Source: Xanthobacteraceae bacterium (lineage in GTDB: Bacteria; Pseudomonadota; Alphaproteobacteria; Rhizobiales; Xanthobacteraceae). From it: a stretch of DNA of 64,000 bases. The notes beneath the pieces were generated by a model. That model saw only the letters and a program-made list of their open reading frames with translations, searched no databases and was not told where the DNA came from. The translations under genes and the position numbers were made by a program. Shown here one piece after another: positions 48,247-52,549 of this stretch. Each line of letters opens with the position of its first letter. The stretch's first letter is position 1. The stretch is from assembly GCA_022844205.1 (NCBI GenBank), contig JALHMF010000001.1, positions 370,028 to 434,027 of the forward strand, in the 5' to 3' direction.

Positions 48247-49284
48247 TTATTGTTCGGCTCCGATCCCCATCATTCGCCCGCGCGCGAGACCAAGCTGCAA
48301 GATGCGGGTGAGCAGGCGACGATAGCTCAGCTTCGCGTGCGCGGCGGACTGCGCGAATTCCTCTTCCTTCGCGATTTCGGGATTGGGATTGGCCTCAATG
48401 TAATAGGGGACATTGTCCGCGGACAGGCGGAAATCCACGCGCGCGTAGCCATCGAGATCGAGCGTGCGGCAGACGCGCTTCGCGATCCGCTCGATCTTCG
48501 CCCGCAACTGCGGGCTTAGATCTTTGGCGGGGCCATGAATGATGCCGCGCTTCTCCTGATAGCCGACATCGTGCTTTACCTTTTCCGTCGCAATCCGGTG
48601 CGCGCTTTCGGGCAGGCTGCCGAAATCAAGCTCCCACACCGGCAGCACGCGCAGCCGGTCGTTGCCGATCACGCCCACATATAACTCGCGCCCCTCTATA
48701 TACTGCTCCACCAGCGCGCCGGTGCCGATCTGTTCGTGGATAAAGGCGACGCGCTCCTTCAGCTTTTCGTCGGTCTCCACCACCGACGCCTGCGAGATGC
48801 CGAGCGAGGCGTCCTCGTTCACGCTCTTCACGATCAATGGGAGCGTCAGCCGCGCTGGCCGATGCACTTTTCGTCCGCGTGGAAACACCGCGAACGGCGG
48901 CACCGGGATACGGTGATAATGCAGCAGCTTCTTGGAAAGATCCTTGCCGCGCGAGAGCATCATGCCGCGCGGATTGCAGCCGGTGTAGGGGACGCGGATC
49001 AGTTCCAGATAGCTCGCCACGTTTTGGTCGTAGATCGCCTCGCCGTGAAACTGCTCCAGCAGATTGAACACGATGTCCGGTTTCCAGCTGTCCAAGGCGT
49101 CGCGGATCGGACGCAGCTCGTCCTGCACGCCGAGCGCCTTCACCTCATGCTTGAGGGATCGCAACGTGCTGCAAACATCGTATTCGGTCTTCCAGACATT
49201 GATTTCCGCCTCCGAATACCCCTTCGATGACTCCGGCGGCACGAAATCCGGATGCATCAGCACCAGAACGCGCAGCGGTTTCAT
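48247..49284 (-). CDS. ATP-grasp ligase, D-Ala-D-Ala-ligase-like
   Basis: A 345-residue ATP-grasp enzyme. An N-terminal Rossmann-like part (PLRVLVLMHPDFVPPE) is followed by IVFNLLEQFHGE and the grip: VPYTGCNPRGMMLSRGKDLSKKLL, LPLIVKSVNEDASLGIS (ATP lysine and loop), LVEQYIEGRELYVGVIG and the Mg site GYARVDFRL...YYIEANPNPEI. It resembles D-alanine-D-alanine ligases but no mur or other cell-wall gene is nearby, so another peptide bond is likely. It starts 10 bases after the end of the putative peptidase gene and is surely cotranscribed with it. Confidence 0.88.
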   Translation of the reverse strand: MKPLRVLVLMHPDFVPPESSKGYSEAEINVWKTEYDVCSTLRSLKHEVKALGVQDELRPIRDALDSWKPDIVFNLLEQFHGEAIYDQNVASYLELIRVPYTGCNPRGMMLSRGKDLSKKLLHYHRIPVPPFAVFPRGRKVHRPARLTLPLIVKSVNEDASLGISQASVVETDEKLKERVAFIHEQIGTGALVEQYIEGRELYVGVIGNDRLRVLPVWELDFGSLPESAHRIATEKVKHDVGYQEKRGIIHGPAKDLSPQLRAKIERIAKRVCRTLDLDGYARVDFRLSADNVPYYIEANPNPEIAKEEEFAQSAAHAKLSYRRLLTRILQLGLARGRMMGIGAEQ

Positions 49285-49294
49285 GTTTGTCCCG

Positions 49295-50323
49295 TCATAG
49301 GGCGAACCATTGCCGCCGCGCCGGACCAAACAGCGAATGCACGGTGCGCGCGGTGAGGAGTACCGCGAAATCCATGATCAGTTTCCGCTCGTTGCCGGGC
49401 GCGCGCAGGTTCATCTTGCGGCATAACTCGATCATCTCATCGAGAAGTGAATCGATTGTAAGCTGGTATTCGCCGGTCCAGCGGGAGACCAGAGAGCGCA
49501 ATTCCGTGCGGTTATGCCGGATGAAGGCGGTGGCTTTCTTCGAGTGACGGTGACGTGGATCGGCGGAAAAAATCCTGAACAGATCGCGGTCGAACGACTT
49601 GCCCGGACTGTCCACGGCGTAGAGCGCCTGTTTCCGCTTGTAGTGCTCGCCCAGCGTCATGCGGTTGCTGCGCAACGGCTCCACTTCAATGCGGCGGGTT
49701 AGCAATGGGCGCTGCTCGGCGATCTCCTTCATCGTCTCGTCCACATATTGCAGCTTCTTTAAAGCGCCCCACCCTTCGTAACGCTTCCTCCAGTTCGAAC
49801 GCGGTTTCAGCCAGACCGCGAATGTCTCCGCGAAATCCTCGTCGGGATGGCTTTGCGCGTACCAAAGGCGTAGATGCTGGACGAAATTCTTGCTCGCGGG
49901 ATTCGGCCGGTAATAGCTCGGATAGCGCTGCGATGAGGCGCCGAAAATTTGCTGCCATTTCCGGCGGCGATGCAGCTTGTAGGAATGTTGCAGGACGTGA
50001 CCCGCTTCATGCCGCAGGATGCGCATGCACTCCGGCACCGTTCCGCCTTCGACGTCGATGATCATTCTGCGCTCGAGCCGCATCAGGCGCGGATGCGCGA
50101 GATAGAACGGGATCGCGATGCCGGGCGTCGTATCCGGGCTGAACCATTCGGTGGAGAGCCAGGCATGCGGTCGGATACGGATGCCCCGCTCTTTCAGCTC
50201 CCCGTCAAGTTCACGCAGGCATTCTTCCAGCCAGGTGCCGCGGATACGGATGTTCAGGTCCCGCAGCCGGAGCTGCAGGAGTTTCTCGTCCGGATAATGG
50301 GCCCAGGGAACTTTGGCGGACAT
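49295..50323 (-). CDS. Putative zinc metallopeptidase (HEAGH), partner of the ATP-grasp gene
   Basis: A 342-residue soluble protein. MRILRHEAGHVLQHSY gives an HExxH motif at His105-His109, and HPDEDFAETFAVWL supplies a likely third ligand, Glu166, as in the putative zinc-binding peptidase family PF15887. The chain is arginine- and tryptophan-rich with no signal peptide or membrane segment. The last 100 residues are helical. The gene directly precedes the ATP-grasp ligase gene, so a joint role in making or trimming a peptide is possible. Substrate unknown. Confidence 0.75.
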   Translation of the reverse strand: MSAKVPWAHYPDEKLLQLRLRDLNIRIRGTWLEECLRELDGELKERGIRIRPHAWLSTEWFSPDTTPGIAIPFYLAHPRLMRLERRMIIDVEGGTVPECMRILRHEAGHVLQHSYKLHRRRKWQQIFGASSQRYPSYYRPNPASKNFVQHLRLWYAQSHPDEDFAETFAVWLKPRSNWRKRYEGWGALKKLQYVDETMKEIAEQRPLLTRRIEVEPLRSNRMTLGEHYKRKQALYAVDSPGKSFDRDLFRIFSADPRHRHSKKATAFIRHNRTELRSLVSRWTGEYQLTIDSLLDEMIELCRKMNLRAPGNERKLIMDFAVLLTARTVHSLFGPARRQWFAL

Positions 50324-50509: not shown

Positions 50510-51004
50510 ATGATGTGCGTGCGAATCCTGAAGGCGGCTGTTGCCGCATTGGTGATCACGGGCGTGAGTACAACTCATGCCGCCCCGCCGGAATCCGAAT
50601 TCAGCCGGCGCGTGGATGAATTGGTACGCTGGATTTCCGAAAATTCCGAATATCCGAGCGCGATGAAGCAGCGGCCGGATTTCGTGTTCCTGCCGCCGCA
50701 AACCATTCGTACTGCTTTTTCCCGCAAGGGGCTTGGCTACAGCGACCAGTCAAGCAGCGTGCGCGCGGTGCAGGTAAAGGGCGCGATCTACCTGCCTGAA
50801 ACGTTCAGTCTCGGCCGCGACGATTTCATGCTGCTGCACGAACTCGTCCATCATCTGCAGGATGAGAGCGAGCAAAAATTCGACTGCCTCGCGGAACGCG
50901 AACGCGAAGCCTACAAGCTGCAAAGCCGGTTCGTTGCGGAAACGGGTGTTGGAGATTCGCCGAACGATATGTTCATGCTGATGCTCCGCTGCGACATCCG
51001 CTAA
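50510..51004 (+). CDS. Secreted HExxH protein (DUF6647-like)
   Basis: A 164-residue exported protein. A signal peptide ends near STTHAAP. The core has FMLLHELVHHLQDES, an HExxH motif at His110-His114, and a possible third ligand in CLAEREREAYKLQ (Glu129 or Glu133). That is the minimal make-up of a small gluzincin-like peptidase. One cysteine pair (Cys126 and Cys161) may form a disulfide. GAGGAGG precedes the tandem ATG start. It is divergent from the HEAGH peptidase gene, 186 bases away. Confidence 0.75.
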   Translation: MMCVRILKAAVAALVITGVSTTHAAPPESEFSRRVDELVRWISENSEYPSAMKQRPDFVFLPPQTIRTAFSRKGLGYSDQSSSVRAVQVKGAIYLPETFSLGRDDFMLLHELVHHLQDESEQKFDCLAEREREAYKLQSRFVAETGVGDSPNDMFMLMLRCDIR

Positions 51005-51664: not shown

Positions 51665-52549
51665 TTACAGCACGACGACTTTGGCGCCGATCTTCACCTT
51701 GTTGTAGAGGTCGATCACATCGTCGTTACGCATCCGGAAGCACCCTGATGACACGGCCTGGCCGATCGTGTGCGGCTCATTGGAGCCGTGGATGCGGTAG
51801 AGCGATGAACCAAGATAGATCGCGCGCGCGCCGAGCGGATTCTCCGGTCCACCTGCCATGAAGGTCGGCAGATCGGGACGGCGCTTCAGCATGTCGTCCG
51901 GCGGGCGCCAGTCCGGCCATTCCTTTTTGTCGGTGACGGACTTCGTGCCCTTCCACTCAAAACCGGGGCGTCCGACGCCGATGCCGTAGCGCGTCGCCTT
52001 GCCGTTATCTTCGATGTAGTAGAGAAATTTCTTGTCGGTATCGATCACGACGCTGCCCGGCTTTTCCTTCGTCTCGTAATTCACCGACTGCTTGAGGAAG
52101 CGCGGATCGAACTGCGGCTTCGCCGGGATCGCGGCGACGCGGTAGATCGGGTCGATGTCGCCGCGCGGCGCCTGGATTAGCGGGCCGCGCGGATCGCGGC
52201 CGCGCACTTCTTCCCACGGGCGCTGGTAGTAGTTACGCGGCAGGCTGTCGCGCGGCGCACTCTGTCCGGTGAAAAGATATTCAATGAAGCCGCCGCCGAG
52301 TTCGCCCGGACGGTGACGGGGCTGCTGCTGTCCTTCGGCGAAATCCGGCTGCGGGGAGCGGTCGCGCGCGCTGCGTTGCGGCTGGACCGTACCGAAGCCG
52401 CGTTCGCGGCGGACCGGGCGTTCCTCGGCGCTGGCACGCTGCGAATAGATCACCTGCGTCCCGGACTGGGCGACATGGAAAGGCCTGTCATCCTCGGCGA
52501 ATGCCGGGGAGGCGGAAGCCAGAAAGAGAGGGAGAATGAGTTTGCGCAT
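51665..52549 (-). CDS. L,D-transpeptidase (YkuD family)
   Basis: A 294-residue periplasmic enzyme that forms 3-3 peptidoglycan cross-links or attaches proteins to peptidoglycan. A signal peptide (LILPLFLASASPAFAED) precedes a 100-residue disordered Gln/Arg/Pro-rich segment. The YkuD domain starts at SVVIDTDKKFLYYIEDNG and holds the active site YRIHGSNEPHTIG...VSSGCFRM with the catalytic His and Cys. All key residues are present. Several paralogues are usual in rhizobia. Confidence 0.94.
   Translation of the reverse strand: MRKLILPLFLASASPAFAEDDRPFHVAQSGTQVIYSQRASAEERPVRRERGFGTVQPQRSARDRSPQPDFAEGQQQPRHRPGELGGGFIEYLFTGQSAPRDSLPRNYYQRPWEEVRGRDPRGPLIQAPRGDIDPIYRVAAIPAKPQFDPRFLKQSVNYETKEKPGSVVIDTDKKFLYYIEDNGKATRYGIGVGRPGFEWKGTKSVTDKKEWPDWRPPDDMLKRRPDLPTFMAGGPENPLGARAIYLGSSLYRIHGSNEPHTIGQAVSSGCFRMRNDDVIDLYNKVKIGAKVVVL

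Follow-up and report, generated by a model that had tools for sequence, protein, structure and literature searches.

In the 64,000-nucleotide stretch of Xanthobacteraceae DNA that we analyzed (here, the window), a gene for a putative zinc peptidase is followed by one for an ATP-grasp ligase with the fold of D-Ala-D-Ala ligases (Ddl), and wherever one of these two genes was found in related genomes, the other lay beside it. Given this both-or-neither distribution in Bradyrhizobium and related soil bacteria and the constant adjacency, ligase and peptidase almost certainly form one small pathway. Using profile searches, we detected an orthologue of the ligase in 44 of 150 genomes of the family and the peptidase in exactly the same 44, adjacent in all of them. 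Within the class, 4 of 289 genomes had both genes, adjacent in 4/4, and the peptidase, searched against 84,980 species genomes, hit 23 loci, every one with the ligase directly downstream (23/23). The other ligase matches in the class genomes at an E value of 1e-30 were only distant paralogues, in genomes G071 and G131; a GNAT gene and a second ATP-grasp gene adjoin one of the G071 paralogues and the G131 ones. The original prediction had taken this pairing of a bond maker with a peptidase for a functional unit and had named rare co-occurrence in a neighborhood analysis as the outcome that would count against it. The two genes co-occur without exception, and the genome has a separate Ddl (see below); the pairing is therefore a functional unit, as had been proposed, and the two roles suggested for it, synthesis plus trimming of a small peptide or reversible tailing of a protein, are both candidates.

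Several genera (e.g., g409, g426, g430, g443, and g448) contain both carriers and near-complete non-carriers, which indicates that the pair was gained or lost whole more than once. The ligase and peptidase trees were correlated (Pearson coefficient of 0.80, with none of 999 permutations as high), a result that is expected for a pair traveling together and that, among related sequences, is no proof by itself. Both genes are under strong purifying selection (dN/dS of 0.05 to 0.13 and 0.06 to 0.20 over ten genome pairs).

Within the operon, the peptidase gene comes first (positions 49295..50323, minus strand) and encodes a 342-amino-acid soluble HEAGH zincin, a divergent relative of PF15887 (Peptidase_Mx), and the ligase gene comes second (48247..49284, minus strand; 345 amino acids; Ddl-fold ATP-grasp). 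The spacer from the peptidase stop to the ligase ATG measures 10 bases (49285..49294, minus strand). Coordinates and strand of a HEAGH peptidase gene and an ATP-grasp gene 10 bases apart were thus borne out. In keeping with a soluble peptidase, neither protein has a hydrophobic segment resembling a signal peptide or a membrane anchor, the maximum 19-residue Kyte-Doolittle means being 1.3 and 0.8. In all 43 related loci that we read, the genes instead overlap by 4 bases, of the ATGA or GTGA type (2 of the 43 display the overlap as −1, the alignment there beginning one residue later). The window copy has lost this overlap and carries the 10-base spacer, and the old ATGA has been left at the peptidase stop (49295..49298, minus strand; window line ..CGCCCTATGACGGGACAAACATGAAACCG) as a relic of the overlapping start of its relatives, here out of frame with the ligase.

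The ligase matches the Ddl C-terminal domain (PF07478; 91.7 bits, E value of 6e-26), and its predicted structure (mean pLDDT of 72, pTM of 0.62) is close to solved Ddl structures (Foldseek E value of 2e-20; VIA Z score of 22.7 over 300 residues). It shares with Ddl the fold and the ATP and magnesium residues but is not the dcw gene and falls far under the curated NCBIfam cut-offs for Ddl, reaching about half of them (120.7 versus 245.65 bits for TIGR01205 and 128.6 versus 243 for PRK01372). A better Ddl match in the same genome (143 versus 93 bits) follows murB on another contig, C10. With this ddl placed after murB, we rejected the window ligase as the only Ddl of the cell, the other finding that had been named as refuting the prediction. 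About 800 bases after that ddl (locus L003, near position 86031 of contig C10 of genome G000), there is also a partial Ddl C-terminal match in a 206-amino-acid frame, close to a stretch of N, and this is either a duplicate fragment or an assembly artefact.

Ligase residues were mapped to those of Ddl by profile alignment to the solved enzymes. K114, K153, E193, R282, D284, E297, and N299, which bind ATP, magnesium, and the intermediate, are invariant in 44/44 sequences, while the Ser-Leu pair that holds the carboxylate of the second D-Ala (S281-L282 in Escherichia coli DdlB) is replaced in all 44 by E or Q followed by E, D, or V. With the fold residues kept and the Ser-Leu pair lost, the enzyme would, from what is known of its family, still form an amide bond via an acyl phosphate, and its acceptor, judging from these residues, is not expected to be D-alanine. 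As a guess, an acceptor that is basic or carries an amine would fit the acidic loop that has replaced the carboxylate-binding one. The counterparts of Ddl E15 and H63 (E25/E27 and H80) are variable, mostly retained, and were not used as evidence. An apparent change of Ddl Tyr216 to His238, seen in a MAFFT alignment, was dropped, as the profile alignment to solved Ddls gives a conserved Tyr242. As to other ATP-grasp families, the ligase lies just under the cut-off of the RimK family (PF08443; 20.2 versus 21 bits), is not circularly permuted, and is not of the graspetide type.

Some loci with other ATP-grasp ligases deserve mention. In two class genomes (L040 and L041), a KamA-like radical SAM gene, two tandem Ddl-like ATP-grasp genes, and a GNAT gene stand in a row, an arrangement suggestive of a cluster that makes peptides from beta-amino acids. 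On a Bradyrhizobium barranii plasmid (L131, 1072-5837), genes for a lysine 2,3-aminomutase, a gamma-glutamyltransferase, a 7TM protein, and an ATP-grasp ligase follow one another. Near a Sinorhizobium ATP-grasp gene, what had looked like a "zinc ribbon" gene proved to encode the zinc ribbon of a recombinase.

The peptidase matches PF15887 with 35.3 bits (gathering cut-off of 27; E value of 1e-8) over 71 residues (103-173), a partial match that covers profile positions 90-165 of 236. Four residues, H105, E106, H109, and E166, are invariant in 44/44 sequences. The first three belong to the HEAGH motif (residues 105-109; codons at 49997..50011, minus strand) and are invariant in distant phage relatives as well; E166 lies in HPDEDFAET (residues 159-167; codons at 49823..49849, minus strand), a second signature common to PF15887 proteins, and is the probable third zinc ligand. 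Full-length PF15887 proteins share this HExGH plus HPxEDFAET core with the peptidase (hhalign probability of 95% over 72 columns) but have an N-terminal zinc ribbon (PF10005; present, for instance, in the L091 protein) that is absent from the window peptidase. The two also differ in their other N- and C-terminal regions and in charge, the ribbon-bearing proteins being acidic and the pair peptidase consistently basic (median net charge of +17, with its ligase near neutral), and only the latter has a fixed ligase partner of its own. The fold model had a mean pLDDT of 76, with loop 133-162 below 50 and fair values elsewhere. By structure, the model resembles zincins weakly (VIA Z score of 8.3 at best), and searches by sequence gave no convincing solved relative, which leaves the motif as the basis for calling the protein a zincin. 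Zinc hydrolysis is what family knowledge would predict for it.

When the genes lying up to about 6 kb from the pair were clustered across 43 loci, no conserved third gene emerged, the next most frequent neighbor families occurring in only 7/43. Likewise, no small open reading frame (ORF) of at least 20 amino acids was conserved within 700 bases on either side; flanking small ORFs were common to at most 6 closely related loci of the 43. In 31/37 cases, the next gene after the ligase runs in the opposite direction, and the operon thus usually ends with the ligase. Upstream, EcfG, RpoH, RpoN, and sigma-70 promoter patterns were found at 0 to 1 of 44 loci, with no class standing out, and a stress or heat shock promoter for the pair was rejected on these grounds. 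Models of anti-phage defense and phage-protein families gave no match to the pair. The original prediction had also described the surroundings as free of cell wall genes. This does not strictly hold for the window, where an L,D-transpeptidase gene (YkuD; E value of 9e-21) is found 1.3 kb away at 51665-52549 (minus strand), but that gene is outside the operon and no neighbor is conserved with the pair. The divergent neighbor (50510-51004, plus strand), some 190 bases from the pair, encodes a small putative secreted HExxH protein (DUF6647; HELVH) and is not conserved beside the pair elsewhere.

In the explanation that we favor, the two genes form a single operon with translational coupling, and their products are soluble cytosolic enzymes that serve one pathway, would be made in a fixed ratio, and would need nothing else at the locus. 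The ligase would activate a carboxylate with ATP as an acyl phosphate and join it to an amine, as its family does, so that a peptide or protein acquires an amide, and the peptidase would cut that molecule by hydrolyzing an amide or peptide bond. The likeliest reading is that, as in the case of RimK and RimB, the two enzymes counteract or edit one another at the end of a peptide or protein, adding and removing residues, and we give this about even chances. That both act on the same bond in opposite directions is inferred with less support. The observations in favor are the obligate pairing, the intact catalytic residues, the purifying selection, the lack of a third gene or precursor, and the separate Ddl. 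A more specific form can be put forward only tentatively: in Bradyrhizobium and its relatives, the ligase might write an amide-linked residue or tail on a protein or peptide end and the zinc peptidase erase it, the target being possibly, because the peptidase is basic, a large acidic partner such as the ribosome. If true, such a reversible end modification would be the zinc-peptidase counterpart of RimK/RimB.

The strongest competitor, which we regard as possible although doubtful, is the synthesis of a small nonribosomal peptide in one direction, in which the peptidase would cut a larger precursor to free an amino acid or a peptide for the ligase to extend or cap. Relatives of the ligase (31 to 37% identity) cluster with genes for KamA (lysine 2,3-aminomutase), 2,3-diaminopropionate, and gamma-glutamyltransferase or with tandem ATP-grasp and GNAT genes, and this company of unusual-amino-acid genes favors small peptides over protein tailing. 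Along similar lines, for two branches of graspetide-type ATP-grasps that lack precursors, it has been suggested that the peptides come from peptidases (PMC8939145). However, the pair has no conserved neighbor that would make amino acids, transport a product, or tailor it.

Alternatively, the peptidase could regulate or mature the ligase, or both could serve one process without a common substrate, which we consider improbable. The tight translational coupling fits a fixed ratio, and the contrast between a strongly basic peptidase and a near-neutral ligase could mean different partners, but an alignment of 26 ligases showed no conserved extension beyond the Ddl fold, and nothing in it looks like a processed pro-region. 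It is more improbable still that the pair makes a graspetide or another ribosomally synthesized and posttranslationally modified peptide (RiPP), in which the ligase would cross-link a ribosomal precursor and the peptidase remove its leader. ATP-grasps and zincin peptidases do occur together in some graspetide loci (PMC8939145), but the ligase of the pair is Ddl-like. Furthermore, the sparse sharing of small ORFs described above speaks against this proposal, and a RiPP precursor was rejected for all 43 loci within the 700 bases on either side.

In glycopeptide resistance, VanA and VanX are a ligase and a zinc dipeptidase encoded in one operon, so that a Ddl-fold ligase and a zinc peptidase are combined there as they are here. 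A cell wall role of this kind, with the ligase making D-Ala-D-X and the peptidase destroying D-Ala-D-Ala, has the Ddl/Van fold of the ligase and the nearby L,D-transpeptidase gene on its side but is the least credible of all, as the peptidase is of another family with a different motif (no VanX-type [M15] match in Pfam or NCBIfam at E values up to 1), the ligase has lost the D-Ala-binding residues in all 44 sequences, no wall gene is conserved with the pair, and a separate Ddl is present.

Returning to the preferred reading, opposition or editing on one molecule, the closest parallel is the Pseudomonas RimABK system, in which an ATP-grasp (RimK) and a protease (RimB) have been experimentally described as a pair, with RimB removing the glutamates that RimK adds to a ribosomal protein (PMC11957791). 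In both cases, an ATP-grasp ligase and a protease are encoded together. However, RimB is a retropepsin-like aspartic protease, unrelated to the zinc HExxH peptidase of the pair; the pair ligase is of the Ddl type and not of the RimK family; and there is no RimA-like third gene beside it. The Anbu operon, which encodes a circularly permuted ATP-grasp, alpha-E, a transglutaminase, and Anbu, is a predicted system for peptide synthesis or tagging that includes a peptidase (PMC5666114, PMC6376114). It differs in that none of its proteins is conserved beside the 43 pair loci, the pair ligase is not permuted, and the peptidase is a zincin. Full-length PF15887 genes, on the other hand, adjoin a transglutaminase-DUF2126 amidoligase gene in 3/14 loci of the genomes of this family. 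Proteins of this kind (zinc ribbon plus zincin) are encoded beside a transglutaminase-DUF2126 gene in L091, L093, and L095 and near one in L090; in two of these loci, L091 and L095, the transglutaminase-DUF2126 gene has a circularly permuted ATP-grasp/alpha-E gene as its neighbor. Full-length PF15887 is a possible extra member of the Anbu-type gene neighborhood.

ATP-grasp ligase plus peptidase as a kind is therefore already known or predicted elsewhere, and the earlier statement that no pathway with this pair had been described is too broad in general (RimK/RimB, the predicted Anbu operon, and VanA/VanX). It stands for these two families: in the open-access literature, we found no paper on this pair of families, its strict pairing, or its two-gene form (the 2009 amidoligase survey of Iyer and colleagues, outside that scope, may mention it) and none on expression or essentiality of the pair. 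Modules of an ATP-grasp ligase and a peptidase are suspected of producing hidden peptide metabolites and of protein tagging in bacteria, and most proposals about them rest on varied gene neighborhoods, while here the module is minimal and the two partners are always the same. Since this fixed pair occurs in genetically tractable Bradyrhizobium-type genomes, a role as a module that makes and cuts an amide is directly testable.

A more distant version of the pair was found on viral contigs (L116/L129), where a peptidase relative (36 to 38% identity) is followed, after about 60 bases and in the same order, by a ligase with 37% identity. Phage tail genes, a tRNA-Phe gene, the pair, and a glycosidase-like gene succeed each other there; given the tail genes and the tRNA-Phe gene before the pair, we read it as host DNA beside an integrated phage. 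Neither the window peptidase nor its distant relative was found by tblastn in phage and plasmid collections, and within that scope we rejected carriage on phages or plasmids. In an eight-sequence alignment of the peptidase, R-H-E-x-G-H and H-P-D-E-D-F-A-E-T-F-A were invariant; further phage copies depart from the second motif by single changes. In other phage relatives, the peptidase domain occurs with no ligase nearby, in some cases fused behind a HAD-like domain, which indicates that the peptidase chemistry does not need the ligase. Phage contigs with the peptidase core alone include L117 (2971-3612), L118 (2533-3705), L119 (2341-3672), and L134-L139, one of them 181 kb long; the core is often fused to a preceding HAD-like domain ("DFDGT" or "DWDGT") at the N terminus, and its gene comes directly after portal-like genes in L118 and L119.
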